Shown here: piece after piece, positions 2,495-17,953 of the stretch | Layout of the letters: every line of letters starts with the position of its first letter | Position numbering within the stretch: the first letter of the stretch is position 1 | Assembly: GCF_031456545.1 (NCBI RefSeq) | Contig: NZ_JAVDUV010000001.1 | Location: 1,488,001-1,552,000, forward strand | Direction of reading: 5' to 3' | DNA: 64,000 bases | Source of the DNA: Agromyces sp. 3263 | GTDB lineage: Bacteria > Actinomycetota > Actinomycetes > Actinomycetales > Microbacteriaceae | Made by a program: the position numbers and the translations under genes | Notes under the pieces: model-generated | What the model was told of the DNA's origin: nothing | What the model saw: only the letters and a program-made list of their open reading frames with translations | Database searches by the model: none

Positions 2495-2500
2495 GTGATG

Positions 2501-2506
2501 AACATA
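2501..2506 (-). promoter_or_regulatory. Candidate -10 hexamer (TATGTT) for a leaderless ABC ATPase transcript
   Basis: On the reverse strand TATGTT is followed by six bases and then the ATG at 2494. Transcription would start at or next to the start codon. No convincing -35 is visible. Confidence 0.5.
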
Positions 2507-2618
2507 ACAGATGCGCCCGGCTCTGGGCCAGCCTCACAAGGAGGAAAACGGCGACGATCTGGCGTCCGCCGGAATAAGGACTGCCGGACCGCGCGTCGGC
2601 GATTTATGACGACGAACA

Positions 2619-2657
2619 AACTTAAGTTGCCAACCAAGACGCCACTTATGCTACGTT
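2619..2657 (+). promoter_or_regulatory. Candidate promoter and 10-bp operator palindrome of the sugar-binding protein operon
   Basis: A perfect palindrome AACTTAAGTT spans 2619-2628 and overlaps a possible -35 TTGCCA (2627-2632). Possible -10 elements are TATGCT (2647-2652) and TACGTT (2652-2657), with imperfect spacing (14 and 19). The palindrome is the best operator candidate in this divergent region and could be bound by the ROK repressor at 6228-7454. That link is inference. Confidence 0.35.
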
Positions 2658-2764
2658 GACGTTGTCAGCGCGGACGACGCGGCTGAGCTACCCTCCGGGG
2701 CAGCCGTGCCAGGGTCGAGAATCCTCGCCGGCACGTCTGCGAATCACTCACATTTGGAGGACAC

Positions 2765-3799: not shown

Positions 3800-3843
3800 C
3801 GCGGCGGTGCCCGGTCGACCGATCGGGAGCCATCGCACCACCC

Positions 3844-3881
3844 GCGGACGCCCGCGTCGCCACTGCGACGCGGGCGTCCGC
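3844..3881 (+). terminator. Strong hairpin between binding-protein and oxidoreductase genes
   Basis: A perfect inverted repeat, with arms 3844-3860 and 3865-3881 (17 bp) and a CACT loop. It lies 44 bases after the stop of the binding-protein gene and has no T-tract. It is either a partial terminator or a 3'-end stabiliser that sets different expression of upstream and downstream genes. Confidence 0.65.
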
Positions 3882-3919
3882 CCCGGACCGGCCCGTCGAG
3901 GCCGATGAGAGAGAGAACG

Positions 3920-5083
3920 ATGACCTCGATGCGGGTAGCCATGATCGGCTACGGATTCATGGGAGCCGCGCATTCGCAGGGGTGGCGCGTGGCGCCACGG
4001 TTCTTCGACCTGCCGGCGAGCCCCGACATGGCGCTGCTCGTCGGCCGCAACGGCGGCGCGGTCGCCTCCGCCGCCGAGAAGTGGGGATGGGCCGACACCT
4101 CCACCGACTGGCGCGCGGCGATCGCGCGCGATGACATCGACGTCATCGACATCGTGACCCCGGGCGACTCCCACGCCGAGATCGCCATCGCCGCCCTCGA
4201 GGCCGGCAAGCACGTGCTCTGCGAGAAGCCGCTCGCCAACTCCGTGGCCGAGGCCGAGATGATGGCCGCCGCCGCCGAACGCGCCGCCGCCCGAGGCGTC
4301 TTCGCCATGGTCGGGTTCACCTATCGCCGGGTTCCCGCTGCGACGTTCGCCCGGGACCTGGTCGCGCGCGGGGCCATCGGCGACGTGCGCAGCGTGCGCG
4401 CCGAGTACCTGCAGGACTGGCTCGTCGACGAGTCCGCGCCCCTCGCCTGGCGCCTCCAGAAGGAGCACGCGGGTTCCGGCGCCCTCGGTGACATCGGCGC
4501 CCACGCCATCGACCTCGCCCAGTTCATCACCGGCCAGCGCCTCACCGGTGTCGCCGGCACCATCGACACCGTGGTCGCCGAGCGGCCGCTCCTCGCTGAG
4601 GGCAGCGGACTCTCGGGCACCGCGGGCGCCGGCTTCGGTGCCGTGACCGTCGACGACGTCGCCCTGTTCACCGGACGCTTCGAGGGCGGTGCCCTCGGCT
4701 CGTTCGTCGCCTCCCGCATGAGCACGGGGCGCAAGAATGCCCTCCGCATCGAGGTCTCGGGATCGCGGGGCGCCGTCGCCTTCGACCTCGAGGACATGAA
4801 CGCCCTGCAGTACTACGACCGCACCGCACCGTCGGACCGCCAGGGGTTCACGAAGATCCTGGTCACGGAGCCGGAGCATCCGTATCTCGACGCCTGGTGG
4901 CCCGCCGGTCATATGCTCGGCTACGAGCACGGGTTCGCCCATCAGGCGAAGGACTTCGTCGAGGCGATCGCCGGGGGCGTGCAGCCGACCCCGTCGTTCG
5001 CCGACGGGCTCCAGGTGCAGCGCGTCCTCGGCGCCGTCGAGCAGAGCTCCCAGGCGAACGGCACCTGGACGCCGACCACCTGA
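3920..5083 (+). CDS. Gfo/Idh/MocA family oxidoreductase
   Basis: Probable NAD(P)-dependent sugar or cyclitol dehydrogenase. The N-terminal Rossmann fold shows MIGYGFMGAAHS, and the family motif CEKPLANSVAEAE carries the catalytic lysine. The C-terminal half has the GDIGAHAIDLAQF pattern of the alpha/beta domain. The start is placed at ATG 3920 (MTSMRVAMIGYG), where GAGAGAG precedes at suitable spacing. An in-frame ATG at 3905 would add MRERT. From 3920 the protein has 387 residues. It lies in a sugar-uptake operon and is followed after 45 bases by a sugar isomerase, so the pair probably processes the imported sugar. Substrate unknown. Confidence 0.88.
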   Translation: MTSMRVAMIGYGFMGAAHSQGWRVAPRFFDLPASPDMALLVGRNGGAVASAAEKWGWADTSTDWRAAIARDDIDVIDIVTPGDSHAEIAIAALEAGKHVLCEKPLANSVAEAEMMAAAAERAAARGVFAMVGFTYRRVPAATFARDLVARGAIGDVRSVRAEYLQDWLVDESAPLAWRLQKEHAGSGALGDIGAHAIDLAQFITGQRLTGVAGTIDTVVAERPLLAEGSGLSGTAGAGFGAVTVDDVALFTGRFEGGALGSFVASRMSTGRKNALRIEVSGSRGAVAFDLEDMNALQYYDRTAPSDRQGFTKILVTEPEHPYLDAWWPAGHMLGYEHGFAHQAKDFVEAIAGGVQPTPSFADGLQVQRVLGAVEQSSQANGTWTPTT

Positions 5084-5128
5084 ACCCGACACGAGCAACC
5101 ACGTCACGAACGCATCAAGGAGGATCCA

Positions 5129-6136
5129 GTGACTCGACCGATCACCCTGTTCACCGGCCAGTGGGCCGACCTGCCGCTCGAGGAGGTCGCACGCCTCGCC
5201 GCCTCATGGGGCTACGACGGGCTCGAGCTCGCATGCTGGGGCGACCATCTCGACCCATGGCGCTGGGACGACGACGACTACATCGCCGACCGGCTCGCGC
5301 TGCTCGAACGACACGGGCTCAAGGTGTGGGCGATCTCCAACCACCTCACCGGCCAGGCCGTGTGCGACGACCCCATCGACGCTCGACACGAGGGCATCCT
5401 GCGCGAACGCGTGTGGGGCGATGGCGATCCCGAGGGCGTCCGTCGGCGCGCCGCCGAAGAGATGCAGAACACCGCGCGCCTCGCCGCGCGCCTCGGCGTC
5501 GACACCGTGGTGGGCTTCACCGGCTCGGCGATCTGGAAGTACATCGCGATGTTCCCGCCCGTCGCCCAGGAGGCGATCGACGCCGGCTACCAGGACTTCG
5601 CCGACCGCTGGAATCCGATCCTGGACGTGTTCGACGAGGTGGGCGTGCGCTTCGCCCACGAGGTGCACCCCTCCGAGATCGCGTATGACTACTGGACGAC
5701 GATCCGCACCCTCGAAGCCATCGGCCACCGACCGGCGTTCGGCCTGAACTGGGACCCGAGCCACATGGTCTGGCAGGACTTGGACCCCGTCGGCTTCCTC
5801 TGGGACTTCCGCGACCGGATCTACCACGTCGACTGCAAGGACACGCGCAAGCGCATGGTGAACGGTCGAAACGGCCGACTCGGCTCGCACCTCGCGTGGG
5901 CCGACCCGCGCCGCGGGTGGGACTTCATCTCCACGGGACACGGCGACGTGCCCTGGGAGGACGCGTTCCGCATGCTCAACACCATCGGCTACCAGGGTCC
6001 CATCTCGATCGAGTGGGAGGATGCCGGCATGGACCGCCTGCTCGGCGCGCCCGAGGCCATCGAGTTCGTGCGACGGCTGGCATTCGACGCTCCTGACGCA
6101 GCCTTCGACGCCGCGTTCAGCACCAAGGCCGACTAA
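5129..6136 (+). CDS. Sugar phosphate isomerase/epimerase (TIM barrel)
   Basis: Xylose-isomerase-like TIM barrel (AP_endonuc_2 family) of 335 residues, probably epimerising or isomerising the oxidised sugar made by the preceding dehydrogenase. Visible family features are [14 protein letters not shown] near the N-terminus, [15 protein letters not shown] (metal-ligand glutamate/histidine region), [10 protein letters not shown], and HVDCKDT with metal-binding His and Asp. GISIEW-like PISIEWED occurs near the end. The GTG start at 5129 is supported by AAGGAGG seven bases upstream. It is the last gene of the rightward operon and ends at a bidirectional terminator shared with the convergent ROK gene. 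Confidence 0.88.
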
Positions 6137-6158
6137 CGCCGAGCGCGGCCCGACTTCT

Positions 6159-6193
6159 GACGGATGCCCCGGGGTGGCCTCGGGGCATCCGTC
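6159..6193. terminator. Bidirectional terminator between convergent genes
   Basis: A perfect 13-bp stem (6159-6171 with 6181-6193) and a 9-base loop between the stop of the isomerase gene and the stop of the ROK gene. Both arms are built from the octamer CGGATGCC/GGCATCCG that is over-represented in this window. Confidence 0.7.
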
Positions 6194-6227
6194 GTATGTC
6201 CTCGCGTGGTGCGGATCCCGCCGCGGG

Positions 6228-7454
6228 TCAGACCTTCGCCGCCGTCGGCGCGCCGACCACCATCTCCTCGATGTTCGCGGGCGACAGCGCGTGGTGGATC
6301 GCGAGCATGCAGGCGCCGAGTACTGCGGCGTCCGCCCCGGCCTTGGACTGCGTGATCTGCAGGTGCTCGGTGGCGAGCGGCATCGAGCGCGTGTAGACGA
6401 TCTCGCGGACCCCCGCGATGAGGTGCTCGCCCGCCTGGGCGAGCGAGCCGCCGATGACGATGACCGACGGGTTGATGAGGCTGACGCAGGTGGTGAGCAC
6501 CTCGCCGATGTCGCGACCGGCCTGGCGCACGGCCTGGATGGCGGTGATGTTGCCGCCCTTCACGAGCTCGACCACGTCTTGGCTGGACTCGGGCGACATG
6601 CCGGTGTCGCGCAGGTCGCGCGCGAGGGCCGGACCCGAGGCGAGCGCCTCGAGGCATCCGCGGTTCCCGCACTGGCAGGGCACGTCGGCGCCGCGTGCCA
6701 CGTGCACATGCCCGATGTCGCCGGCGGTGCCCTGTGCCCCACGCTGGAGGATGCCGCCCGAGATGACGCCCGACCCGATTCCGGTCGCGACCTTGACGAA
6801 GATGAGGTGGTCGACCTCCGGCCAGGACAGCTCGCGCTCGCCCAGCGCCATGATGTTCACGTCGTTGTCGACGAGCACGGGGGCGTCGAAGGTGCCGTGG
6901 AACCAGCCCGGCACGTCGAAGCGGTCCCAACCGGGCATGATCGGCGGGTTGATCGGCCGGCCGGAGCTGTGCTCGACGGGACCCGGGAGCCCGATGCCGA
7001 TGGCGAGCAGGTCGGCGGGCGAACGGCCGAGCCGGTCGAGCAGCTCCTGCGCGGCCCCCGAGACCCACGTGAGCACCGTCTCGGGACCCTCGGCCACGCG
7101 GATGGGCTCGCTGCTCTCGGCCTGGATGCGCCCGGTGAGATCGCTGACGGCGATACGCACGTGGGAGGCGCCGACATCGACGCCCAGCACGACGCGCCCG
7201 CTCGCCGCGATGGCGAACTGGGACGACGGTCGCCCACCGGTCGAGACCGCGTCGCCGACCGGGCCGACGAGCCCGAGCTTCATGAGGGCGTCGATGCGGA
7301 GTGCCACCGTCGACCGGGCGAGGCCCGTCATGGCCGAGAGCTCGGTGCGGGTGCGGGGACGCCCGTCGCGCAGGATCTGGAACAGGTCACTGGCGACGGA
7401 GGAGCCGAGGGCGGTGATGTGCCCGTTCTGGCCGGTGCGACTTATGTCGGTCAT
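6228..7454 (-). CDS. ROK-family transcriptional repressor
   Basis: Likely local regulator of the sugar locus. The N-terminal winged helix-turn-helix includes TELSAMTGLARSTVALRIDAL. The ROK kinase-like domain follows: LGVDVGASHVRIAV (ATP-site-like), the ATGIGSGVISGG glycine motif, and the zinc site CQCGNRGCLEA. The length of 408 residues is typical for ROK repressors. The reading frame stays open far upstream, but the protein proper begins at ATG 7454 (MTDISRTGQNGH). AAGAAT lies exactly six bases before this ATG and no Shine-Dalgarno is seen, so it may be leaderless. It faces the sugar operon and is downstream of the EBO-type operon, so read-through from the latter is possible. Confidence 0.92.
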   Translation of the reverse strand: MTDISRTGQNGHITALGSSVASDLFQILRDGRPRTRTELSAMTGLARSTVALRIDALMKLGLVGPVGDAVSTGGRPSSQFAIAASGRVVLGVDVGASHVRIAVSDLTGRIQAESSEPIRVAEGPETVLTWVSGAAQELLDRLGRSPADLLAIGIGLPGPVEHSSGRPINPPIMPGWDRFDVPGWFHGTFDAPVLVDNDVNIMALGERELSWPEVDHLIFVKVATGIGSGVISGGILQRGAQGTAGDIGHVHVARGADVPCQCGNRGCLEALASGPALARDLRDTGMSPESSQDVVELVKGGNITAIQAVRQAGRDIGEVLTTCVSLINPSVIVIGGSLAQAGEHLIAGVREIVYTRSMPLATEHLQITQSKAGADAAVLGACMLAIHHALSPANIEEMVVGAPTAAKV

Positions 7455-7548
7455 CTGTCCATTCTTCCACAATCGGCGTTCGAAGTTCCCGGATCGTGGT
7501 CGCAAGGGCGCCCCCCTTTCGGTCGTCACGCCGTCGGGCCCACGCTCT

Positions 7549-8118
7549 TCACGGCACACCCCCGAACGCCCCGGCCGCCCGCAGCTCGAGTCCCTGCAGC
7601 ACGCTCCAGGGACTGAGCACCGACGGCAACGCGTCCACCACCCGGAGGAAGTCGGCGGGGTCCACCCAGCGCCAGTCCATGACCTCGTCGGGCGCGGGGT
7701 CGAGGCTGGTCGGCAGCTCGGCGAAGACCACCGGGCAGACCTCGTGCTCCACGAGGCCGTCGGGTGCGACCGCGCGGTAGCGGAAGTCGGGCAGCACGAC
7801 TCGCACCGAGATCGGCGCGACCCCGAGCTCGAACCGCAGCCGCCGCTCGACGGCCGCCTCCAGGTCCTCGCCCGGCGAGGGGTGGCCGCAGCACGTGTTC
7901 GTCCACACGCCGGGCCACGTGCGCTTGGCGAGCGCACGGCGCGTCAGCAGCATCCGCCCGTCGCCGTCGAAGCCGTAGCAGGAGAAGGCGAGGTGCAGCG
8001 GGGTGTCGACGCCGTGCACCCTCGACTTCTCCATCGACCCGATCGGCGCACCCGATGGGTCGAGCAGGACGACCTCCTCGATGTTCCGCGCCTCGGAGTG
8101 GGGAAGGACGGTGCTCAT
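7549..8118 (-). CDS. idi: Isopentenyl-diphosphate delta-isomerase, type I
   Basis: Interconverts isopentenyl and dimethylallyl diphosphate, supplying the primer for prenyl chain synthesis. It is a Nudix-fold enzyme of 189 residues. The active-site motif TNTCCGHP (cysteines 76/77) is typical of type I enzymes, with the downstream EHEVCPVVFAEL carrying the catalytic glutamate. ATG 8118 overlaps the stop of the preceding phosphodiesterase gene by four bases, so translation is probably coupled. It is the last gene of the nine-gene EBO-type operon. Together with the polyprenyl synthase at the head of the operon, it argues that the product is an isoprenoid. Residues near the C-terminus are not diagnostic. 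Confidence 0.93.
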   Translation of the reverse strand: MSTVLPHSEARNIEEVVLLDPSGAPIGSMEKSRVHGVDTPLHLAFSCYGFDGDGRMLLTRRALAKRTWPGVWTNTCCGHPSPGEDLEAAVERRLRFELGVAPISVRVVLPDFRYRAVAPDGLVEHEVCPVVFAELPTSLDPAPDEVMDWRWVDPADFLRVVDALPSVLSPWSVLQGLELRAAGAFGGVP

Positions 8119-9518
8119 GCCGCCCCCACCGGCGCACCGACGCCCGCCGCCTGCAGCACCAGGTCGCGCACGGCGGCCGCGGGCACCGCGTCGCCGACGT
8201 CGTCCCAGAACGGGAGCGCGGCGTCGGAGCACAGCAACAGCGGGGAGTCGGCCTCCGACGACGGCAGCCGACCGTGCGTGCCGCGCACCCACGACGGGTC
8301 GAGCGGCACGACGTTCATCGCGTACCGCAGGCCGAGCTTCTTGCGCACCAACCCGAGCGCCGCCTTCCCCTTCGCCAGGCGGTCGGCCGGGTCGAAGAAC
8401 AGTTCGGCCGGGTCGTACCCGGGCTTGCGGTGGATGTCGACGCCGCGCGCGAACTCGGGCGCACGGTCGTCGTCGAGCCAGTAGTAGTAGGTGAACCAGG
8501 CCCCGGGCTCCGCGACGACGACGAGCTCGCCCGACCGTTCGTGGTCGAGTCCGTATCGCCGCTGAGCGTCGCGGTCGAGCACCTCGTCGACGCCCGGCAG
8601 GCCCAGGAGCAGGTCCCGCACGCGTTCGACGTCGGCGGGGTCGGCCACGTAGACGTGCGCGACCTGGTGGTCGGCGACGGCGAACGCCCGCGACGTCCAC
8701 GGGTCGAGCTGCTCGCGTCCCTGCTGCACGTAGACCTCGAGGAGTCCCTCGCGACGGAGGAACCGGTTGAGGTCGACGGGCCGGTTCGCCGACTCGATGC
8801 CGTACTCGGAGACCGCGATCACGGTGACGCCCGTCGCCTGCGCGTCGTCGAGCAGGGGCGCCATGGCCGCGTCGAGCTCGGCCGCCGCCCGGTCTGCCTG
8901 CAGCGACTCGGGACCGAAGCGCTGCAGGTCGTAGTCGAGGTGCGGCAGGTACGCCATGACGAGGTCGGACCGCCGCTCGCGCATCACCATGCGGGTCGCC
9001 TCCACCATCCAGCGGGTCGACGCGATCGACGCGGTCGGACCCCAGTACTGGAAGAGCGGGAACTCGCCGAGCGCGCCGGTCAGCTCGTCGTGCAGCGCCG
9101 GCGGTCGCACGTAGGCGTCGGGCGACTTGCGTCCGTCGGCGTGGTAGACCGGACGCGGCGTCACGGTCACGTCGGTGGTGGCCCCCATCGCGTACCACCA
9201 GCCGACGTTCGCCGCCGTGAAGCCGGGCTGCTGGCGCCTGGCCGTCTCCCACACCTTCTCGCCCTGCACGAGCGCAGTGTGCTGGCGCCACAGGTGCACC
9301 TCGCCCTGGTCGCGGAAGTACCAGCCGTTGCCCACGATGCCGTGCTGCGCGGGCGCCAGGCCGGTGAGCATGGTGGACTGCACACTGCAGGTCACGGCGG
9401 GCAGCACGGTGCCGAGCCGGGTGCGGGCGCCGGATGCCGCGAGGGCGCTGAGCCTGGGCATGTGCGCCAGCGCACGTGGGGTCAGTCCGACGACGTCGAG
9501 CAGCAGGACCGAGGTCAT
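8115..9518 (-). CDS. eboF: Alkaline-phosphatase-superfamily phosphodiesterase, EboF-like
   Basis: Type I phosphodiesterase/nucleotide pyrophosphatase family, 467 residues. It starts MTSVLLLDVVGLTPRAL, where the Asp is a metal ligand, and the nucleophile region AVTCSVQSTMLTG carries the catalytic Thr/Ser. Further ligands appear in YLPHLDYDLQRFG and IAVSEYGIE. There is no signal peptide, so it is probably cytoplasmic. EBO clusters encode such an enzyme as EboF. Its real substrate is unknown; a phosphodiester- or pyrophosphate-linked prenyl or cyclitol intermediate is a reasonable guess. Starts and stops overlap by four bases on both sides (9515-9518 and 8115-8118). Confidence 0.82.
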   Translation of the reverse strand: MTSVLLLDVVGLTPRALAHMPRLSALAASGARTRLGTVLPAVTCSVQSTMLTGLAPAQHGIVGNGWYFRDQGEVHLWRQHTALVQGEKVWETARRQQPGFTAANVGWWYAMGATTDVTVTPRPVYHADGRKSPDAYVRPPALHDELTGALGEFPLFQYWGPTASIASTRWMVEATRMVMRERRSDLVMAYLPHLDYDLQRFGPESLQADRAAAELDAAMAPLLDDAQATGVTVIAVSEYGIESANRPVDLNRFLRREGLLEVYVQQGREQLDPWTSRAFAVADHQVAHVYVADPADVERVRDLLLGLPGVDEVLDRDAQRRYGLDHERSGELVVVAEPGAWFTYYYWLDDDRAPEFARGVDIHRKPGYDPAELFFDPADRLAKGKAALGLVRKKLGLRYAMNVVPLDPSWVRGTHGRLPSSEADSPLLLCSDAALPFWDDVGDAVPAAAVRDLVLQAAGVGAPVGAA

Positions 9519-10645
9519 GCGGTCACCTCCGAGGGTTCGAGCAGGTCGGCGGCCCAGCGCACCTCGCCGGCGATGCCGGCCACGAGGTCGTCGACCGCAT
9601 CGGGCAGTACGGTCCAGGTGTAGGTCTCGACGTCGACGTGGGCCTCATCGCCATGCGGGATGGAGCGCACGGCGGCGAGCGCGGTGGCGAGCACCTCGGT
9701 CGTCGCGGTGAGCGGCGCTCTCGGCCGGAGGTGCAGCGGCACGTGGAAGTGCACGCGCCACGGTCCCCCGGCGGGCAGCACGTCGAGCGCCTCACCGAGG
9801 TCGTCGGTGGCGAGCACCCTGCCGTCGGGCTGGAGCTCCCGCGTCTGGTGCAGGTAGCGCGGCTCGACGAAGGCGGCGATCGCCTCGCGGTTCGCGGCGT
9901 CCGACGGCCGCTCGACGTGCAGTGCGGCCGAGGCCTGCACCTTCACCACGCGAAGTCCGGCATCGGCGATCTCGCGCACCGCGGCATCCGGGTCGGCGAA
10001 GGAGACCGCGAGGTGGCAGGTGTCGAGGCACACGCCGACGAACTCGGGGTCGATCTCGCCCGAGCGCGTGCGCGGGGCGAGCCAGGCGACGACGTCGTGC
10101 ACCGTATCGAGCACGCAGCCGGGCTCGGGCTCGATCGCGAGCCGCACCGTGCGGCCGGTCTCCTCGCGAAGCGCGCGGAGCCGGCGAGCGACGTGAGCGA
10201 GCGATGCGCTCGCGCGACGGTCGTCGTCGGCCGTCCACGGCGCACGCCACGCAAGCGGCAGCGTCGAGATGCTGCCGGCGCCGCCCTCGGGCAGGAGGTC
10301 GGCGAGCACGGCCGCGCAGTCGAGCGTGTGCGCCACGCGGCGTTCGTCGGTCCAGTCGGGGCGATACACGTCGAGCTTCACGACGTCGGCGTGGAACGCC
10401 CGGTACGGGAACGCGTTGACCGTGCGGAGCTCGAGCCCGTTCGACGCGAGCCGCGCCCGGAGCCGGTCACGATCCGGCGGGCTCGCGGCGAGGCGGGCGG
10501 CGAGGTCGGCCGGAAGCCAGAGGCCCACGCCGAGCCGGTCGAGTCCCGCGGCCGCCCGCACCGGGCCGGCGAAGGCATCGAGCTGCGCGAGCACCCCGTC
10601 GAGGTCCTCGGCGGGGTGGACGTTGGTGCAGTACGAGAGCTCCAT
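9515..10645 (-). CDS. eboE: EboE-like metabolite traffic protein (xylose-isomerase-like TIM barrel)
   Basis: 376 residues from ATG 10645. The N-terminal MELSYCTNVHPAED matches the hallmark YCTN(I/V)HPGE opening of EboE proteins. The barrel includes LAIEPEPGCVLDT, VGVCLDTCHLAVSF and VHFHVPLHL, consistent with the divalent-metal sites of sugar isomerases. EboE is part of the EBO set linked in other bacteria to making or moving a secondary metabolite. Its reaction has not been established as far as I know. The start is chosen because TGATG joins it to the stop of the upstream TatD-like gene; the open frame further upstream overlaps that gene and is discarded. Confidence 0.85.
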   Translation of the reverse strand: MELSYCTNVHPAEDLDGVLAQLDAFAGPVRAAAGLDRLGVGLWLPADLAARLAASPPDRDRLRARLASNGLELRTVNAFPYRAFHADVVKLDVYRPDWTDERRVAHTLDCAAVLADLLPEGGAGSISTLPLAWRAPWTADDDRRASASLAHVARRLRALREETGRTVRLAIEPEPGCVLDTVHDVVAWLAPRTRSGEIDPEFVGVCLDTCHLAVSFADPDAAVREIADAGLRVVKVQASAALHVERPSDAANREAIAAFVEPRYLHQTRELQPDGRVLATDDLGEALDVLPAGGPWRVHFHVPLHLRPRAPLTATTEVLATALAAVRSIPHGDEAHVDVETYTWTVLPDAVDDLVAGIAGEVRWAADLLEPSEVTA

Positions 10646-11520
10646 CAGGCTCGCGCCCCCCGCAGCACGGAGTTGCCCTCGAATGTCGCCGGGACGAGCG
10701 GCTCGTGCTCGACGAACCCCGGGACCGGGTCGAGGTGCAGTCGCCCGCTCTGCCCGTAGAAGGCGACGGGGTTCTGCCAGAGCACGACGTCGACGTCGTG
10801 CTCGGTGAAGCCGGCGTCGAGCATGGCCTGGGCGGTCTTCCGGGTCTTCAGGGGATCGGACTGACCCCAGTCCGCGGCGGAGTTCACCAGCATCCGCTCG
10901 GTGCCGTATTCGCGCAGGATCGCGACCATGCGATGCTCGTCCATCTTGGTGTGCGGATAGATCGAGAAGCCCATCCAGCATCCGGATGCGGCGACCTCGG
11001 CGACCGTGGTCTCGTTGAGGTGGTCGACCACGACCCGCTCGGGGCCGATGCCCGACTCGCGCACCACGTCGAGCGTGCGCGTCGTGCCGGCTGCCTTGTC
11101 GCGGTGCGGCGTGTGCACGACGGCCGGGAGGCCGACGTCGCGGGCGAGCGCGAGCTGGGTGACGAAGACCTCCTCCTCCTCGGGCGTCATCGAGTCGTAG
11201 CCGAGCTCGCCGACGGCGACCACTCCGTCTTTCGCGAGGTACCGCGGCAGCAGCGCGAGCACCTCCCGGCAGCGCGGGTCGTTCGCCTCCTTCGGGTTGA
11301 GGCCGATGGTGCAGTGGTGGCGGATGCCGTACTGCGCGGCGCGGAACCGCTCCCAGCCGATCAGCGCGTCGAAGTAGTCGACGAAGCTGCCGACGCTGGT
11401 GCGCGGCTGGCCGAGCCAGAACGACGGCTCGACGACCGCGCGCACGCCCGACTCGTACATGGCGACGTAGTCGTCGGTGGTGCGCGCGCTCATGTGGATG
11501 TGGGGATCGAAGATTCGCAT
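10645..11520 (-). CDS. eboB: TatD-like metal hydrolase, EboB-like
   Basis: 291-residue amidohydrolase-superfamily protein. The N-terminal HxH metal motif is visible in MRIFDPHIHMS. AVVHTPHRDKA and VVVDHLNETT supply later histidine ligands, and VNSAADWGQSDPL places the final Asp. EBO clusters encode such a TatD relative as EboB. Substrate unknown. The start at 11520 follows EboA's stop by two bases, with AGGAG upstream inside the end of eboA. It overlaps eboE by one base (TGATG). The catalytic metal ligands look intact, so it should be an active hydrolase. Confidence 0.85.
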   Translation of the reverse strand: MRIFDPHIHMSARTTDDYVAMYESGVRAVVEPSFWLGQPRTSVGSFVDYFDALIGWERFRAAQYGIRHHCTIGLNPKEANDPRCREVLALLPRYLAKDGVVAVGELGYDSMTPEEEEVFVTQLALARDVGLPAVVHTPHRDKAAGTTRTLDVVRESGIGPERVVVDHLNETTVAEVAASGCWMGFSIYPHTKMDEHRMVAILREYGTERMLVNSAADWGQSDPLKTRKTAQAMLDAGFTEHDVDVVLWQNPVAFYGQSGRLHLDPVPGFVEHEPLVPATFEGNSVLRGARA

Positions 11521-11522
11521 GC

Positions 11523-12131
11523 TCAGGCTCCTGGGTCGGTGGTGGTGGCGAGCGCCGTCATGTCGTCGCTCACCGTGCGCCCGGCGGCCCGGCGTTCGGC
11601 GATGAGCGCGGCGGCCATGCGGGCGAGCTCGGGGTCGGCGCGGCGGTCGAGGTCGGCCACGACGTCGAGCGGGATGTCCATGAACAGCGCCTTGAGCACC
11701 CCGTGACGCCAGCCGTGCTGGTCGAGGTGCGCCGCGGCGAACGCGCCGAGCGCCGCGGCGACGAGGCGGGGGTCGTTCGTGCGGAGTGCGTCGGCGACGA
11801 GCTCGACGCCGGCCGAGGCCACCTCGGGCCCGACACGAGGCGCAACGTTGAGGCCGTACAGCACGCCCCGTCGCTCGGCATCGTCGCCGTACCGGTAGAG
11901 GTCGGCGAGCTGCGCGGCGGCCTCGCCCGGCGGCAGCACCCGCAGTAGGGCGACCACGAGATCGGCGCGCGCCCGGTCGTCGACCGTGCCGTGCCGGAGG
12001 CCGAGCGGATCGGCCGCAGGCTCGATCGGCGCGCGCCCGACCGCGCGGCCGGCCGCGGGGAACAGCACGACGATGCGCTGCGGCTCGGCGATCACCTCGC
12101 CGACGGCGGCGGTGGTCCAGTCGATCGTCAT
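11523..12131 (-). CDS. eboA: EboA domain protein
   Basis: 202 residues with no known catalytic motif. The pattern VVLFPAAGRAVGR, the RADLVVALLRVLPPGEAA helix, and DPRLVAAALGAFAAAHLDQHGWRHGVLKALFMDIPLDVV is that of the EboA family, an all-helical protein of unknown biochemistry. The start at ATG 12131 has GGAGGG five bases upstream and overlaps the stop of the preceding isomerase gene by four bases. An in-frame ATG four codons further up (12143) is possible. It is a diagnostic member of EBO clusters and the main reason, with eboE and eboC, for naming this operon EBO-type. Confidence 0.85.
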   Translation of the reverse strand: MTIDWTTAAVGEVIAEPQRIVVLFPAAGRAVGRAPIEPAADPLGLRHGTVDDRARADLVVALLRVLPPGEAAAQLADLYRYGDDAERRGVLYGLNVAPRVGPEVASAGVELVADALRTNDPRLVAAALGAFAAAHLDQHGWRHGVLKALFMDIPLDVVADLDRRADPELARMAAALIAERRAAGRTVSDDMTALATTTDPGA

Positions 12132-13015
12132 CGTTCCCTCCATGCGTCGTGGATGGCCTGCATACTCCGCGCGGCCACGCCCGGGGCGTCGTGCGCGTGC
12201 CGTGGCAGCTCGACGGCAGCGACGCCCCGGTAGCCGATCTCCTCCAGCGTCGCGAGCGACGCGGCGAGGTCGAGGCGGCCGCGACCGAGCTCGAGGTGCT
12301 CGTGCGCCTCGGGCAGCATGTCGTCGACCTGGACGTTCACGAGCAGGTCGCCCGCGGCGCGAAGCGCGCCGACGACTCCATCGGGCTCGACGACGACGCA
12401 GTGTCCGAGGTCGACGGTGATGCCGAGCACGTCGGGCGATCCGAGCTGCTCGCGCAGGCGCAGCGCATCGGCGACGGTCTCGACGAGCATGCCGGGTTCG
12501 GGTTCGAAGCCGAGGGCGACCCCGGACGCCTCCGCGTGCGCGACGATCTCGCGCATGCGCGGCACGAGCCGACGCCAGCCCTCGTCGGCGTCGACGCCCT
12601 CGGGAAGCACGCCCGACCACAACGAGACGCAGTCGGCGCGCAGGATCGCGGCGAGGTCGACGGCACGGCGGAGGAACCGGAGGCGCGCGGCCGCGTACTC
12701 GTCGACGAGGGTGGGGCGGTGCTTGGCGTAGGGATCGAGCAGGTACCTGGTGCCGGTCTCCACCACGACCCGCCAGCCCAGTTCGTCGAGGCGGTCGCGA
12801 AGGTGGGCCGCGCGGAGGTCGGCGTCCTCGGCGAAGGGGTCGAGGTGCGGATGCCCCAGGGTGAGCGCCAAGGCGCCGTATCCGTTCGACTCGAGCACCC
12901 GCAGTGCGGCCTCGAGCGGGTGGTCGGTGAAGCCGTTGGTGCCGTAGCCGAGCACGAAGCCGGCGTCGGGCAGCGGTCCGGTGGCGTGCGCGGTGTCGCC
13001 GAGGGCGATCGTCAT
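12128..13015 (-). CDS. Sugar phosphate isomerase/epimerase-like TIM barrel of the EBO-type operon
   Basis: 295-residue xylose-isomerase-like barrel. It opens FVLGYGTNGFTDHPL, then shows VVVETGTRYLLDPY (metal-ligand Glu), LGFEPEPGMLVETVADAL, LGITVDLGHCVVVEP and VNVQVDDMLPEAHEHLELGRG. The E...D-x-G-H...D/H...E arrangement is complete, so it probably acts on a sugar or cyclitol phosphate. It sits where many EBO clusters have the dehydroquinate-synthase-like EboD, but it is not a homologue of that protein. Four-base overlaps couple it to eboC upstream and eboA downstream. The reaction is unknown. Confidence 0.8.
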   Translation of the reverse strand: MTIALGDTAHATGPLPDAGFVLGYGTNGFTDHPLEAALRVLESNGYGALALTLGHPHLDPFAEDADLRAAHLRDRLDELGWRVVVETGTRYLLDPYAKHRPTLVDEYAAARLRFLRRAVDLAAILRADCVSLWSGVLPEGVDADEGWRRLVPRMREIVAHAEASGVALGFEPEPGMLVETVADALRLREQLGSPDVLGITVDLGHCVVVEPDGVVGALRAAGDLLVNVQVDDMLPEAHEHLELGRGRLDLAASLATLEEIGYRGVAAVELPRHAHDAPGVAARSMQAIHDAWRER

Positions 13016-13908
13016 GTGACGTCACCCGCCCGACGCCGGGCGGCGAGCGCGCGGCGGACGAGGTCCAGCGCGCCGATGGCGGCCGCCGGAACCACTGCGC
13101 CGGTGCGGGCGACGAGCGTCGCCTGCAACGGGATCATCGCACCGATGCCGGCGCGAGTCGCCGTGCGCACATTGGCGGCCGACGGGTCGGCGAGCGCCGC
13201 GAGCTGGCTCGGCAGCAGGGTGCCCGCGTAGGCGATGCCGCCCGCCACCGCACCCGCGGTCGCGGCGACGCGGGTCCGGGAGCCGCGGCCGGGGACGTCG
13301 TCGGCGCGGCCGCCGCCCACGGCCGCGATCGTGGTCGCACCGGTGACCGCGAGCCCCGCGAGTGCGACACCGGTGGAACCGCCGTGCACCTCGCCGCGGG
13401 ACTGCGCGGTCACGCCGGCCGTGTGCACTGCGACCACCGTCGCGGCGGGCAGCGCCGTCGCGACGCCGCGCGCACCCATCATCACGTCGAGCCCGCGGCA
13501 CGCCGCCATGCTCAGCGGTCCCGCGGCCGTCTCCTTGAACACCGTGTTGTACGCCACCACGGCGCCGACGAGCGGCACGGCGACGGCGAGCCCCCTTCGG
13601 CCGCCGCCGGTCGCGGCGAGCCCCACGCCGACGGCCATGCAGGCGGCCGCGATGCCGAGGGCACGCCGAGGCGGGACGCGGCCCGACGGGATGGGCCGCT
13701 CGGGCCGCTCGACGGCGTCGAGCCGGCGGTCGGCGTAGTCGTTGAGGGCCATGCCGCCGCTGTAGAGGAAGACGGAGGCGAGCGGCAGCAGCCACCTGCG
13801 GCCGGCGAGACGCCCCCCACCGGCATACCCGCCCGCGATCGCATCGCCGATCACCGTGAGCGCGGCCGGTGCGCGCACGAGCTCGAGGACGTCGCCGACC
13901 GCGGTCAA
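13012..13908 (-). CDS. eboC: UbiA-family prenyltransferase, EboC-like
   Basis: Integral membrane enzyme expected to transfer a prenyl group from a diphosphate to an acceptor. It has many hydrophobic helices; the first Asp-rich motif is NDYADRRLDAVERPERPIPSG (about residues 56-76), and the second region is CRGLDVMMGARG. UbiA enzymes usually have DxxxD in the second site, so the short LDVMMG form is typical of the EboC branch rather than of UbiA itself. No ATG or GTG lies near the expected N-terminus. A TTG at 13908 overlaps the stop of the inositol-phosphate synthase gene as TTGA and gives MTAVGDVLELVRAP, 298 residues. I prefer this start; a GTG 11 codons in is the alternative. Confidence 0.83.
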   Translation of the reverse strand: MTAVGDVLELVRAPAALTVIGDAIAGGYAGGGRLAGRRWLLPLASVFLYSGGMALNDYADRRLDAVERPERPIPSGRVPPRRALGIAAACMAVGVGLAATGGGRRGLAVAVPLVGAVVAYNTVFKETAAGPLSMAACRGLDVMMGARGVATALPAATVVAVHTAGVTAQSRGEVHGGSTGVALAGLAVTGATTIAAVGGGRADDVPGRGSRTRVAATAGAVAGGIAYAGTLLPSQLAALADPSAANVRTATRAGIGAMIPLQATLVARTGAVVPAAAIGALDLVRRALAARRRAGDVT

Positions 13909-15170
13909 CGTGCGACCCGTGCGGGTCGCCGTGCCACGGCGAGGCGTGCGCCCGTCGACTGCGCCCATTCGATCAGGTCGTCGGTCTGCTGCCCGAAGTC
14001 GTGCACGTCGCTGCCCCATGGGTCCTTGAAGAAGAAGCCGAGCTCGGGCACGACGCCACCGGCGCCCGCGGCATCCGCCAGCGCGAGGAGCCGTGCGAGG
14101 TCGAGCACGAGGGGCGCCGCCAGCATCGAGTCGTAGGCGCTCCAGATCGTCTGCATGGTGATGCGCGAGCCGAGGAACCCCTCGGCGTGGATGTGGTCCC
14201 ATGCCGTCTTGATGTCACCGAGGTCGGGCACGTTGTCGATGTGGAGCGGCGCGACGACGTGCTCGCCGACGAGGGTGCGCAGGCCCCGGGTCTTCGAGGC
14301 GAGCTTGCTCTGCACGGCTTCGGGGTCGGCGAGCGTGGCGCCGTCGCCGCCGCCGAGCAGGTTCGCTCCGGCCCAGGAGTGCACGTGCATGCCGCGGGCG
14401 CCGAACATGGGAGCGAGCGCCGTGCGGATGAGGGTCTCACCGGTCTTACCGTCCTGCCCGGCGAACGGGATGCCTCGCTGCGCGGCGAGCTCCTGCAGGA
14501 CGGGCAGCGAGAGTCCGGCGGAGGGCGTGAATCCCGCGTAGGCGCTGCCGGACTCGATCGCGGCGAGCGCGGCGATCGAGCTCGACGGCAGCACGGCCCG
14601 GGCCGGGTCGGCCAGCGCGGCAGCGAGGAGCACCGCATCGTGGAACTCGGGGCGGTCGGCGGCGATGGGCTCGGTCGACGAGATGTCGACGACGACGACG
14701 TGGTCGAGCCCGTGCCGGTCGCGGAACGCCAGGATCTCGTCGGCCAGCCTCGCCACGGCGGCGGCCTGGGTGCCGGCATGGGTCCCCGGGTGGTAGCCCG
14801 GCCGGATCTCGGCGTCGGCCTGCTCGAGCCCTGCGAGGGCGGCGGTGACGTAGCGCTGCGGGATCATGCCCGAGTCGGCCAGCGCCTGCGCGCGATGCGC
14901 CAGCGGCGTGGTGCTGACGTCGTGGCCGCCGAGCACGAGGTCGTCGAAGCCCGGCAGCGGCACGCCCGCGAACTCGGCGCCGGCCGTGGCGCAGCCCGTG
15001 GGAGCCGCGAGGCCGGCGGCGAGGGCGTGCAGTCCGACCGCGACGGCGGTGGCCACCGAGCCGCGGGCGCCGACCAGCCACACGCCCACGCGACCGTCCG
15101 TCCAACCGGTCGTGGGGGTGGGCGCGTTCGAGTCGGTGTCGAGCGGCGGTGCGGTGTCGAGCATGGTCAC
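13905..15170 (-). CDS. ino1: Inositol-3-phosphate synthase (MIPS)
   Basis: NAD-dependent cyclase converting glucose 6-phosphate to inositol 3-phosphate. Visible family features are VWLVGARGSVATAV (NAD-binding Rossmann loop), VVVDISSTEP, FAGQDGKTGETLIRTALAPMF with the catalytic lysines of the GKTGET form, HSWAGANLLGGGDG and HIDNVPDLGDIKTAWDH. The GTG at 15170 is preferred because GGAGG lies six bases upstream; an ATG two codons later is possible. It has about 421 residues. It is second in the EBO-type operon. Cyclitol synthesis here may replace the sugar-phosphate cyclase EboD of other EBO clusters, which I do not find in the window. Confidence 0.92.
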   Translation of the reverse strand: MTMLDTAPPLDTDSNAPTPTTGWTDGRVGVWLVGARGSVATAVAVGLHALAAGLAAPTGCATAGAEFAGVPLPGFDDLVLGGHDVSTTPLAHRAQALADSGMIPQRYVTAALAGLEQADAEIRPGYHPGTHAGTQAAAVARLADEILAFRDRHGLDHVVVVDISSTEPIAADRPEFHDAVLLAAALADPARAVLPSSSIAALAAIESGSAYAGFTPSAGLSLPVLQELAAQRGIPFAGQDGKTGETLIRTALAPMFGARGMHVHSWAGANLLGGGDGATLADPEAVQSKLASKTRGLRTLVGEHVVAPLHIDNVPDLGDIKTAWDHIHAEGFLGSRITMQTIWSAYDSMLAAPLVLDLARLLALADAAGAGGVVPELGFFFKDPWGSDVHDFGQQTDDLIEWAQSTGARLAVARRPARVAR

Positions 15171-15193
15171 GTCATTCCTCCAGGGTGTTCGGA

Positions 15194-16378
15194 TCATCGG
15201 GTGCGGCTTCGCATCGATCGGGCGAGTCGGGCCAGGTGGGTCGCGAGGGGGCCCGGCAGGTCGGCTTCGGCGATGCGGATGCCGCGGGCGACGTGCTCGT
15301 CGACGGCGACCGCCACGGCATCGCGGGCACCGCTGCGGAGCACGAGGTCGCGCACGAGGTCGACGTCCCGGTCGGTGACCGACGGTGCGCCGAGCACGGC
15401 GTCGAGCATCGCGCGGCCAGCGGCGTCGAGCCGCCCGTAGGCCAGTCGGATGAGCTCCGTGCGCGTGCCCTGCTGCAGGTCGGACCGCACCGACTTGCCG
15501 GTGACGGCCTCGGTGCCGAAGAGGCCGAGGTCGTCATCGGCGAGCTGATAGGCGATGCCGAAGGCGAGGCCGACCCGGTCGAGGCTGTCGAGGACGTCGA
15601 CGGATGCCACGCCGGCGGCGATCGCGCCGAGCCGAAGCGGCAGCGACACGCTGTACACGGCGGTCTTCAGCTCGGCGACCCTGAGTGGGTCGGCCAGGTC
15701 GGGGCGGACCAGCTCCGAGCGCACGTCGAGCAGCTCGCCCGCGATCGTGCGCTCCAGCGCCGCCGCGGCCTCGGCGGCGAGCCGCTGCTGCAGCTGCGCG
15801 GGGGCAGGCGCGTCGAGCAGTGCGAGGAGCGCGGCGTTCAGGGCGAGGTCGCCGGCGAGCAGGGCGGCCGCCATCGCGTGCCGGTCGGCCGCGGCATCCG
15901 TCAGCCCCGCTGCGCGGTCACCGGCCTCGTACGCGGCGAGCAGGTTCGGCCGGCCATGGCGCCGCCGGTCGCCGTCGATCAGGTCGTCGTGCATGCAGAG
16001 GCCGAGGTGGAGCAGCTGCTGGGCGCCGGCGACCTCGCCGAGCAGACGGTGGTCAGCGCCGCCGAAGGCGAAGTACGCGGCGGCCACGAGACGCGGTCGG
16101 AGGTGCTTGCCGCCGTCGGACGCCGCCGCCTCGTCGAGCAGCCGGACGACCTCGGGGCCGAACGCCGCGCACCGGGACCGGACGCGGCGCCAGTGCGCGG
16201 CCGTGATGGCCGGTGACGTCGCACCGAAGGCCTCGACCTCGGCATCGAGGCGGGCGCCGGCGTCCGCGGCGGCGTCCGGAGTCTCGATGACGGGGTCGGC
16301 GACCATGCGGCCGTCGAGCGAGGTCAGCAGTGCGCCCTCGATCGTCAAGGGCGCGGTCATCGGCGGTGACGACTTCAT
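15194..16378 (-). CDS. Polyprenyl diphosphate synthase (trans-isoprenyl, IspA/GGPS-like)
   Basis: Elongates allylic diphosphates with IPP. The 394-residue sequence has the KHLRPRLV substrate-binding motif, the first Asp-rich motif MHDDLIDGD (D131-D135), and a second one reduced to YQLADDDLG, a form frequent in bacterial GGPP-type enzymes. Product length cannot be fixed from sequence; geranylgeranyl diphosphate is the best guess. An N-terminal extension of about 50 residues is longer than usual. The ATG at 16378 has GGAGGA at good spacing. It is the first gene of the EBO-type operon, with a clear sigma-70-type promoter and a structured leader upstream. Confidence 0.88.
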   Translation of the reverse strand: MKSSPPMTAPLTIEGALLTSLDGRMVADPVIETPDAAADAGARLDAEVEAFGATSPAITAAHWRRVRSRCAAFGPEVVRLLDEAAASDGGKHLRPRLVAAAYFAFGGADHRLLGEVAGAQQLLHLGLCMHDDLIDGDRRRHGRPNLLAAYEAGDRAAGLTDAAADRHAMAAALLAGDLALNAALLALLDAPAPAQLQQRLAAEAAAALERTIAGELLDVRSELVRPDLADPLRVAELKTAVYSVSLPLRLGAIAAGVASVDVLDSLDRVGLAFGIAYQLADDDLGLFGTEAVTGKSVRSDLQQGTRTELIRLAYGRLDAAGRAMLDAVLGAPSVTDRDVDLVRDLVLRSGARDAVAVAVDEHVARGIRIAEADLPGPLATHLARLARSMRSRTR

Positions 16379-16651: not shown

Positions 16652-17953
16652 TCAGGCAGCCCGGAGCGAGTCCCGCCCGATCCCGCCGATCGAGCGGTGG
16701 CCCGCGAGCGCCATCGTGAGGTCGAGCTCGGCGAGGTGGTTGCGCACGACCTCGCGCACGCCGGTCTCGCCGGCCACGGCGAGGCCGTACGCGTAGGGCC
16801 TGCCGATGCCGACCGCCGTGGCTCCGAGTGCGAGGGCGATGAAGGCGTCGGCTCCGCTGCGCACGCCGCTGTCGAGCACGATCGGCAGGTGTCCGCCGAC
16901 GCGCTCGACGATGCCCGGCAGCGCGTCGAGGGTCGCCACCGAGCGATCGACCTGACGGCCGCCGTGGTTCGACACCACGATGCCGTCGACACCGGCGTCG
17001 AGGGCCCGGCTCGCGTCATCCGGATGCAGCACGCCCTTGAGCAGCACGGGCAGCGAGGTCCACTCACGCAGCCTGCCGAGGTCGTCCCACGTGAGGCTCG
17101 CGTCCGAGAAGACGTCGAGGAAGGTCTCCACCGCCGCCCGAGGCAGCGGCGAGCGCAGGGCGTCGCGCACGCCGCCCTCGAGCAGCCTCGTGCCGGCGCC
17201 GTGGCGGGCTATCGACAGGGCCGAGCGCAACAGGGTCGGCGTGACGCTGGGCCGCGCTCCCCCGACGGCGCCGCCCGACACCCGTGCGCGCGCGAGCTCG
17301 GCGAACACCGGATCACTCGTGTACTGCGCGATGCCCTGCCCGCGCGTGAACGGCAGGAACGCGGCGTCGAGGTCGCGGGCGCGCCAGCCGAGCAGGTGCG
17401 TGTCGAGGGTGACGACGACGGCCTCGCAACCGGCCGCCTCCGCCCGGCGCAGCAGCGACGCGTTGAGGTCGCGTGAAGCGCTCCAGTAGAGCTGGAACCA
17501 CCGCGATCCGTCGCCCATCGCGGCGGCGACCTCCTCCATCGGGCGCGACGCCTGGTTCGACAGCACGTAGGGCACGTCGAGCGCGGATGCCGCGCGGCCC
17601 ACGGCCACATCGGCCTCGGGGTGCGCGAGCTCGGCGACCCCAATCGGCGAGAGCAGGAACGGCGTGGCGCGTCGCCGCCCGAGGAGCTCGATCGAGAGGT
17701 CGCGCTCGGACACGTCGCGGAGCACGCGCGGCCACACCTGCCACCGCCCAAACGCGGCCCGGTTCGCGGCCATCGTCGCCTCCGACCCGGCGCCGCCGGC
17801 GAGGTAGGCGAACGCCTCGGCGGACGTCGCCTTGCGGGCGGCGCGCTCGAGCGCCGCCACGTCGACGGGCACGGCCGGCTTCGTGCCGCTCACCCCGGCA
17901 CGGTACACGTCGGACTGCACGGTGCGCGCGTACCCGCGGTTCGCCTCGGTCAT
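16652..17953 (-). CDS. FMN-dependent alpha-hydroxy-acid oxidase, lactate 2-monooxygenase-like
   Basis: 433 residues of the FMN-dependent alpha-hydroxy acid dehydrogenase family, which oxidises 2-hydroxy acids such as L-lactate. The catalytic motif SNHGGRQVD includes the active-site histidine (residue 330). Other family segments are LLSPIGVAELAHPEAD, PVLLKGVLHPDDASRALDAG, and VLDSGVRSGADAFIALALGATAVGIGRPYAYG. An extra loop (WRARDLDAAFLPFTRGQGIAQYTSD) resembles that of lactate 2-monooxygenases more than that of short glycolate oxidases. The start at 17953 has AAGGAG nearby. It is a single gene, divergent from the Nudix gene and convergent with nothing; its stop is about 110 bases from the EBO-type promoter dyad. 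Confidence 0.88.
   Translation of the reverse strand: MTEANRGYARTVQSDVYRAGVSGTKPAVPVDVAALERAARKATSAEAFAYLAGGAGSEATMAANRAAFGRWQVWPRVLRDVSERDLSIELLGRRRATPFLLSPIGVAELAHPEADVAVGRAASALDVPYVLSNQASRPMEEVAAAMGDGSRWFQLYWSASRDLNASLLRRAEAAGCEAVVVTLDTHLLGWRARDLDAAFLPFTRGQGIAQYTSDPVFAELARARVSGGAVGGARPSVTPTLLRSALSIARHGAGTRLLEGGVRDALRSPLPRAAVETFLDVFSDASLTWDDLGRLREWTSLPVLLKGVLHPDDASRALDAGVDGIVVSNHGGRQVDRSVATLDALPGIVERVGGHLPIVLDSGVRSGADAFIALALGATAVGIGRPYAYGLAVAGETGVREVVRNHLAELDLTMALAGHRSIGGIGRDSLRAA

Follow-up and report, generated by a model that had tools for sequence, protein, structure and literature searches.

We analyzed a 64,000-nucleotide stretch of the Agromyces sp. 3263 genome (contig NZ_JAVDUV010000001.1, positions 1,488,001 to 1,552,000; here called the window) that contains a nine-gene ebo-type operon on its minus strand. 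EboD, a sugar phosphate cyclase that resembles dehydroquinate synthase, is the presumed ring-forming enzyme of the canonical ebo cluster. The Agromyces operon encodes EboA, EboB, an EboC-type prenyltransferase, EboE, and an EboF-type hydrolase, but no EboD-like sequence was matched in the whole window (tblastn with eight EboD proteins, E <= 1e-3). In the place of EboD, the operon carries a gene for inositol-3-phosphate synthase (MIPS), accompanied by a gene for an isomerase-like protein that we call ISO. MIPS is an NAD-dependent enzyme that converts glucose 6-phosphate to 1D-myo-inositol 3-phosphate, and it is unrelated to EboD. We consider it probable, though well short of assured, that the operon represents a second chemical type of ebo: MIPS, together with ISO, would replace EboD, and the product is likely an inositol(-phosphate) prenyl ether. 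The original prediction for this stretch, a note made from the sequence alone, had proposed a prenylated cyclitol; the absence of eboD, with MIPS in its place, was the main point that it missed.

EboD and MIPS among ebo loci

EboE was found in 27 of 396 Actinomycetota genomes (E <= 1e-10), and an EboC of the SCO3242 type scored over its cut-off in 25. Every place of EboE found in these genomes, except the window's own, was included in a set of 28 actinobacterial loci. MIPS lay beside ebo genes in 25 of these loci, and in 24 of them a seven-gene core (MIPS, EboC, ISO, EboA, EboB, EboE, and EboF) was complete and in one order. The exceptions were L038, which showed partial matches and had neither MIPS nor ISO; L039, which was of the EboD type and carried EboG; L054, in which a search at 1e-5 gave no match to ISO; and L056, which lacked MIPS. 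L056 is an additional ebo copy of genome G123; it had an SCO3242-type EboC and ISO, and a FAD-dependent oxidoreductase-like gene was located at the MIPS position.

EboD and MIPS are mutually exclusive in the sampled loci. The full sample of 118 loci consisted of the 28 actinobacterial loci, 10 plasmid loci (of 48 records, chosen for spread), and 80 loci from named genomes; L081 to L160 were the best 80 of at least 582 confirmed candidates, ranked against the EboE of Gemmatirosa. Three or more ebo genes were present in 104 loci; of these, 69 had EboD, 28 had MIPS, none had both, and 7 had neither (L038, L056, L082, L085, L090, L106, and L149, with L082 and L085 being contigs of 5.3 and 7.0 kb). 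The ratio of 69:28 is not a census, and 27 of the 28 MIPS loci were actinobacterial. The 14 loci with fewer than three ebo genes comprised 4 with EboD and 10 with neither cyclase. When the search was repeated at E <= 1e-3, EboD was found in 0 of the 28 MIPS loci and MIPS in no EboD locus.

ISO was present in 27 of the 28 MIPS-type loci, in 0 of the 69 EboD-type loci, and in L056 (tblastn, E <= 1e-6). Weak 38-bit matches to ISO appeared in two EboD loci when the threshold was loosened to E <= 1e-3, and another xylose-isomerase-like gene adjoined EboB in the EboD locus of Ketogulonicigenium (L073).

The MIPS gene (13905..15197, minus strand; 430 aa) encodes both Pfam domains of the family, PF07994 and PF01658, and the nearest solved chain was A. 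fulgidus mIPS (1u1i, E 9.7e-64). K298, K302, K330, D356, and K391 were identical in 31 of 31 aligned sequences, three archaeal sequences included; we take these residues to be the catalytic lysines and aspartate, from the roles assigned to their counterparts in A. fulgidus mIPS. With both domains and these residues kept, the protein is a predicted inositol-3-phosphate synthase. The ISO gene (12128..13015, minus strand; 295 aa) encodes a TIM-barrel protein with a metal site that resembles sugar or cyclitol isomerases (PF01261, E 6e-35). E171, D202, H205, and E269 of ISO were kept in at least 93% of 32 aligned rows. ISO was not assigned to a named isomerase, since no NCBIfam model reached its cut-off.

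MIPS and ISO-like genes were also found in haloarchaea. Genes for MIPS, EboF, EboB, EboC, and two ISO-like isomerases lay side by side on three plasmids (L169, L171, and L172), from Halobaculum salinum, Natronococcus sp. CG52, and Halocatena salina. On a plasmid of Haladaptatus pallidirubidus (L177), the 16.8 kb read contained all of these genes except MIPS. The best matches of the proteins encoded on the first three plasmids to bacterial proteins had identities of 43 to 46% for EboB, 36 to 43% for EboF, 45 to 50% for MIPS, 34 to 40% for EboC, and 29 to 33% for the isomerases. EboA was not found in these clusters, and the one match to EboE (44.7 bits) fell on an isomerase of L171. The MIPS gene of Halomarina sits among glycosyltransferase genes, not ebo genes. 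YcaO clusters of Roseomonas and Hymenobacter contained MIPS together with a close ISO (52% and 49%), with a UbiA gene neither annotated nor matched there, and an unannotated Methylobacterium plasmid carried the same pair (L173:5638-12825, L174:5797-12423, and L175:5887-12795). From these occurrences, MIPS and ISO look like a portable cyclitol module.

EboC and the predicted product

The gene for EboC (13012..13908, minus strand; 298 aa) was read from a TTG start at 13908; the codon at 13899 is GTC. The protein scored 316.9 bits against NF045897 ("SCO3242 family prenyltransferase"; cut-off, 260) and stayed under the cut-off of the classical EboC model, NF035940 (137.6 versus 250 bits). The first aspartate motif of the UbiA superfamily, NDxxDxxxD, was present, with N53, D54, D57, and D61 invariant in 43 of 43 sequences, and the AlphaFold2 model (295 aa, from about 13896 down; pLDDT, 93.5) consisted of helices only. 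The family score, the motif, and the helical model all agreed with the UbiA-like assignment in the original prediction. By profile, the nearest solved chain was digeranylgeranylglyceryl phosphate (DGGGP) synthase (6m31, E 6e-24; chlorophyll synthase reached 2e-10 and 4od4 2e-5), and a Foldseek search placed 6m31 and 7bpu first by E-value. DGGGP synthase prenylates a polyol phosphate: a hydroxyl of a glycerol phosphate receives the geranylgeranyl group.

If EboC acts on the product of the cyclase, the two would be expected to switch together, and one such case was found. In a tree of EboB, EboE, and EboF (74 rows), the MIPS locus of Gemmatirosa (Gemmatimonadota; L080) grouped, with full support, with three EboG-bearing loci of the EboD type (L039, L074, and L154) and apart from the actinobacterial MIPS clade, so that the cyclase label changed twice. 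In the EboC tree (68 rows), L080 joined the actinobacterial MIPS type (97/87), and one cyclase change sufficed. A single MIPS clade was strongly rejected for EboB and EboF (dlnL 217, p 5e-112). These trees are most simply read as a joint move of MIPS, ISO, and EboC.

For each locus, the trees used the best match to each gene, and translations that contained a stop or an X were omitted. Twenty-two near-duplicate or surplus loci were omitted from the EboB+EboE+EboF tree and the 68-row EboC tree, and the former also excluded rows without all three proteins longer than 230 aa. The EboC tree with archaea and the clade tests omitted 34 loci, and the EboB+EboF set also omitted L119, L131, and L157. 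EboC rows outside 270 to 360 aa and MIPS rows of 360 aa or less were left out, as were 8 further loci in the MIPS tree. The approximately unbiased (AU) tests were run on groups picked after the trees were seen.

We propose that the pathway might run as follows. The operon's isopentenyl diphosphate (IPP) isomerase (IDI) and polyprenyl diphosphate synthase (PPS) would supply a C15-C20 prenyl diphosphate, and MIPS would supply inositol phosphate, the ring stereochemistry of which might be rearranged by ISO and perhaps also by EboE. EboC would transfer the prenyl group to a ring hydroxyl in the membrane, as DGGGP synthase does on glycerol phosphate; a putative joining of geranylgeranyl diphosphate (GGPP) to inositol phosphate by EboC, as in the original prediction, is plausible. 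EboF would then remove or hydrolyze phosphate, EboB would hydrolyze or trim an intermediate, and EboA, a helical protein, would serve as a scaffold. The pathway would end in a prenyl-inositol anchored in the membrane. The individual reaction steps, the chain length, the product, and its role are all inferred.

Several observations weigh against this proposal. EboC was found without MIPS in L056, in L038 (where EboC is split over two frames with a stop), and in the stretch of the haloarchaeal locus L177 that was read. The switch of EboC with the cyclase is known from one locus, L080, and adding three archaeal EboC proteins raised the number of cyclase changes in the EboC tree from one to two. 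The archaeal branch fell weakly (90/70) beside the EboD-type EboC of cyanobacteria and Bacteroidota; a single clade of all MIPS-type EboC proteins (p 0.46) was neither shown nor rejected. The MIPS proteins of ebo loci did not form an exclusive clade (AU test, p 0.0005), with the non-ebo MIPS of Halomarina inside the archaeal group; the MIPS tree, which had two very long rows (L168 and L175) with possibly wrong frames, was used solely for this statement. Most MIPS-type loci lacked PPS and IDI, with PPS adjoining 4 of 28 and IDI adjoining 2 of 28. In the case of EboC itself, the TM-score was higher for the UbiA homologue of A. pernix (4od4, 0.67) than for DGGGP synthase (0.59). EboC also lacked the second aspartate-rich motif in the columns that match that of DGGGP synthase, so donor binding may differ between the two enzymes. 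T164 (43 of 43 sequences) and E170 (42 of 43) stood in its place, and T164, S/A167, and E170 occurred together in 41 of 43. Because the second motif is missing from both EboC types, its absence is not a mark of the MIPS variant. Finally, the published assay of an EboC, for which 14 aromatic acceptors are described, reports farnesylation of quinoline-type aromatics (PMC9235831).

That assay leads to the first alternative, in which EboC prenylates an aromatic, quinoline-like acceptor, and MIPS or EboD, with ISO, separately makes a polyol part or a cofactor, to be joined at a later stage or to serve export. Ubi-297, the EboC of Maribacter, is described as farnesylating 8-hydroxyquinoline-2-carboxylic acid in vitro; the acceptors in the text are all aromatic, so it gives no comparison with a cyclitol (PMC9235831). 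Klicki et al. assigned ebo a part in exporting the aromatic monomer of scytonemin, but the HPLC-MS analysis as they describe it revealed no lipid-conjugated monomer (PMC6282210). No gene for making an aromatic ring was recognized among the nine operon proteins with Pfam and NCBIfam, and the switch of EboC with the cyclase, seen in one case, is what would be expected if EboC uses the cyclase product. We regard the aromatic acceptor as unlikely.

In a second alternative, MIPS serves general inositol metabolism (phosphatidylinositol, mycothiol, or a solute) and sits in the operon by convenience. The window's own genome (G000) had one PF01658 gene, the one in the operon, so that other uses of inositol, if any, would rest on it. 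The same gene agrees with the dedicated supply of inositol phosphate that had been predicted, as does the result for G206, a genome of the same genus that lacks the operon: it had no match to TIGR03450, the mycothiol INO1 model, which was used there in place of PF01658. The operon MIPS scored 27.4 bits against TIGR03450, far under the cut-off of 638, and the best match to MshA in G000 reached 155 bits against a cut-off of 462.5. Three genomes (G153, G192, and G143) had a separate INO1 over the TIGR03450 cut-off in addition to the operon MIPS; in G281, the separate INO1 was just under it (604/638 bits), and in G050 both matches were weak. Given these INO1 and MshA results and the clustering of MIPS with ebo genes in most actinobacterial loci, we judged a general role to be improbable. 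A third alternative, in which the operon MIPS produces some other cyclitol phosphate (for example, a five-membered ring like that of a related synthase), is very improbable: the "five-membered-cyclitol-phosphate synthase" 6k96 was among its PDB relatives but was the weakest of 12 rows (E 3.5e-9; A. fulgidus mIPS reached 9.7e-64), and the lysines and aspartate taken as catalytic in mIPS were kept.

Operon layout and accompanying genes

The nine minus-strand genes spanned positions 7549 to 16378, each without internal stops, and were arranged in the transcription order PPS, MIPS, EboC, ISO, EboA, EboB, EboE, EboF-like, and IDI. Seven of the eight junctions overlapped, in agreement with the mostly overlapping junctions noted in the original prediction: the overlap was 4 bases at PPS/MIPS, MIPS/EboC, EboC/ISO, ISO/EboA, EboE/EboF, and EboF/IDI and 1 base at EboB/EboE, and a 2-base gap separated EboA from EboB. 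The stretch GGAGGAGC precedes the ATG of PPS. A consensus scan found no promoter- or terminator-like sites, a scan that says little at the G+C content of the window.

Genome G237, from the same genus, was collinear with window positions 7593 to 16159 in two pieces of 75% and 70% identity (blastn, E <= 1e-10), and the remainder of the window had no blastn match at this threshold in the 19.9 kb of G237 compared. Because collinearity was confined to the operon stretch, the nine genes form one discrete block rather than a chance arrangement. As a conserved unit across loci, however, the nine-gene set was rejected: PPS and IDI rarely joined the core, and the unit conserved in actinobacteria is the seven genes. 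The predicted conservation of inositol and isoprenoid genes beside ebo held for MIPS in the actinobacterial loci; it did not hold for PPS and IDI, which occurred together in the window operon and G237 only, among the window and the 118 loci.

Families were assigned with Pfam and NCBIfam profiles, and these upheld the ebo membership of the five ebo-type proteins; among the open reading frames scored with NCBIfam, those of EboA, EboC, and EboE began too far upstream. PPS (15194..16378, minus strand; 394 aa), the first gene, matched PF00348 (E 4.4e-32, with a longer open reading frame searched). Its nearest solved chains were geranylgeranyl pyrophosphate synthase (3lk5, E 1.7e-29) and then (2E,6E)-farnesyl diphosphate synthase (8f8f, E 1.7e-26). 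IDI (7549..8118, minus strand; 189 aa), the last gene, encodes a type 1 (NUDIX) isopentenyl-diphosphate isomerase (TIGR02150, 146.7 bits; cut-off, 105.8). The operon-bearing genomes G000 and G237 each had four polyprenyl synthases and two type 1 IPP isomerases, compared with three and one in the operon-less G206; this surplus of one gene of each kind fits the operon having isoprenoid genes of its own, as had been predicted.

Prenyl supply is a recurrent, not a fixed, partner of ebo. The EboD-type loci had a PPS-like neighbor in 0 of 69 cases and an IDI neighbor in 9 of 69. An IPP isomerase, either type 1 or the unrelated type 2, lay at most 230 bases from an ebo gene in 11 of the 118 loci, including loci of other phyla. 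Six of these 11 were over a curated cut-off and one was just under, and those of L094, L097, and L109 were assigned without family-model scoring; the G237 copy was over the cut-off. A type 2 (FMN-type) enzyme over the cut-off was located beside the EboD-type clusters L039 (11822-12862) and L100 (16888-17916). The PPS and IDI counts were made with one PPS query and two IDI queries, and five PPS queries plus all IDI proteins gave the same loci.

EboA (11523..12131, minus strand; 202 aa) scored 140.5 bits against the EboA_domain model NF035938 (cut-off, 50). Its AlphaFold2 model (pLDDT, 96.0) was helical apart from two isolated bridge residues. Foldseek found no match in the PDB at E <= 0.001, and the best rows were mostly helical-repeat proteins; Klicki et al. 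proposed that EboA is TPR-like and acts in forming complexes (PMC6282210). EboB (10645..11520, minus strand; 291 aa) is a metallohydrolase of the TatD/amidohydrolase kind (PF01026, E 1.2e-16). It was 79% identical to its G237 counterpart, and its nearest solved chain was AF_1765 (3guw, E 2e-27). EboE (9515..10645, minus strand; 376 aa) is a xylose-isomerase-like TIM barrel (NF035939, 425.6 bits; cut-off, 250). The EboF-like protein (8115..9518, minus strand; 467 aa) resembles type I phosphodiesterases and alkaline phosphatases (PF01663, E 9.4e-65), with phosphonoacetate hydrolase (3szy, E 5e-8) and nucleotide pyrophosphatase/phosphodiesterase (2gsn, E 2e-6) as its nearest solved chains. The roles given above to EboB, EboE, ISO, and EboF would follow from their superfamilies.

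An FMN dehydrogenase gene that flanks the operon (16652-17953) was considered as a member and rejected, as it had no match in the 28 actinobacterial loci (E <= 1e-5). To the left (window positions 974 to 7937) lay genes for an ABC transporter ATPase, a sugar-binding protein, a Gfo/Idh/MocA oxidoreductase, and a xylose-isomerase-like protein, together with a ROK-family open reading frame. These genes perhaps form a cassette for sugar or cyclitol uptake, and they had no blastn match in the G237 locus.

Related systems and what the exchange would mean

The canonical eboABCDEF cluster (Yurchenko et al. 2016, PMC5133447; Klicki et al. 2018, PMC6282210), as described there, shares EboA, EboB, an EboC-type UbiA protein, EboE, and an EboF-type protein in one operon with the window. 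The window operon differs in having MIPS and ISO instead of EboD, an EboC of a sister subfamily, and its own PPS and IPP isomerase. Because EboD is part of the eboA-F definition (PMC5133447), we filed the operon as a variant and not as a canonical ebo cluster. The paper that named the ebo clusters in 2016 had already proposed an isoprenoid-cyclitol product of EboD and EboC, with the EboD substrate offered as a guess, and its main text has no word starting with "inositol" (PMC5133447). The prenylated-cyclitol part of the original prediction was therefore not new, and its interpretation as a whole is partly supported. What appears to be new is the exchange of eboD for MIPS and ISO and its coupling to EboC: in titles and the beginnings of abstracts, with most subscription journals and supplementary files outside the scope, no MIPS variant of ebo was found in print.

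Another one-component change has been described. In the EboG variant (Yurchenko et al. 2016), EboG replaces EboA; the Gemmatirosa MIPS locus bears an EboG-like gene, and the EboG loci L039, L074, and L154 retain EboD, unlike the window operon. Actinobacterial EboA entries annotated as isomerases are described as fusions to an isomerase-like domain (PMC5133447), but ISO and EboA are separate genes here, overlapping by 4 bases. The BE-40644 pathway, which leads to an isoprenoid-cyclitol, shares the plan of a sugar phosphate cyclase and a UbiA-superfamily prenyltransferase, but its cyclase is of the EEVS type and its UbiA-superfamily enzyme is one other than EboC (PMC5133447). DGGGP synthase (6m31 and 7bpu), which among solved proteins came closest to EboC by profile and ranked first by Foldseek E-value, differs in having the second aspartate motif.

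In the CDA region of Streptomyces coelicolor, SCO3242, a "putative transferase" and the namesake of NF045897, and SCO3243, a myo-inositol phosphate synthase, carry consecutive locus numbers (PMC3610822). The passages on which this comparison draws treat both as CDA-cluster genes and make no link to ebo (PMC3610822). A plasmid of Streptomyces sp. NBC_00376 (L176) carried a MIPS-type ebo operon beside genes for a nonribosomal peptide synthetase (NRPS) and a phosphopantetheinyl transferase, an arrangement that recalls SCO3242 and SCO3243. On a Streptomyces plasmid, a gene annotated as ScyD/ScyE family (L078:3930-5129) lay directly before a MIPS-type ebo operon, and weak matches to it (73 to 105 bits) occurred near the cyanobacterial ebo loci L138, L146, and L151. 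This gene may connect such operons with the system that exports scytonemin.

A broader and more tentative idea is that EboD and MIPS are exchanged within one pathway, each with its own EboC, and that the haloarchaea have a reduced form. The common product class could then consist of cyclitol phosphates that carry a prenyl group in ether linkage. Such a membrane lipid, which we did not find described, might be made by bacteria, by archaea, and in certain algal plastids, and might carry or anchor metabolites that are exported. With the archaeal clusters included, ebo would be a cross-domain pathway. If MIPS truly replaces EboD, the ring substrate of EboC in the variant would be inositol phosphate or a compound close to it, and, because the reaction of MIPS is well known, the question of the ebo product would become testable.

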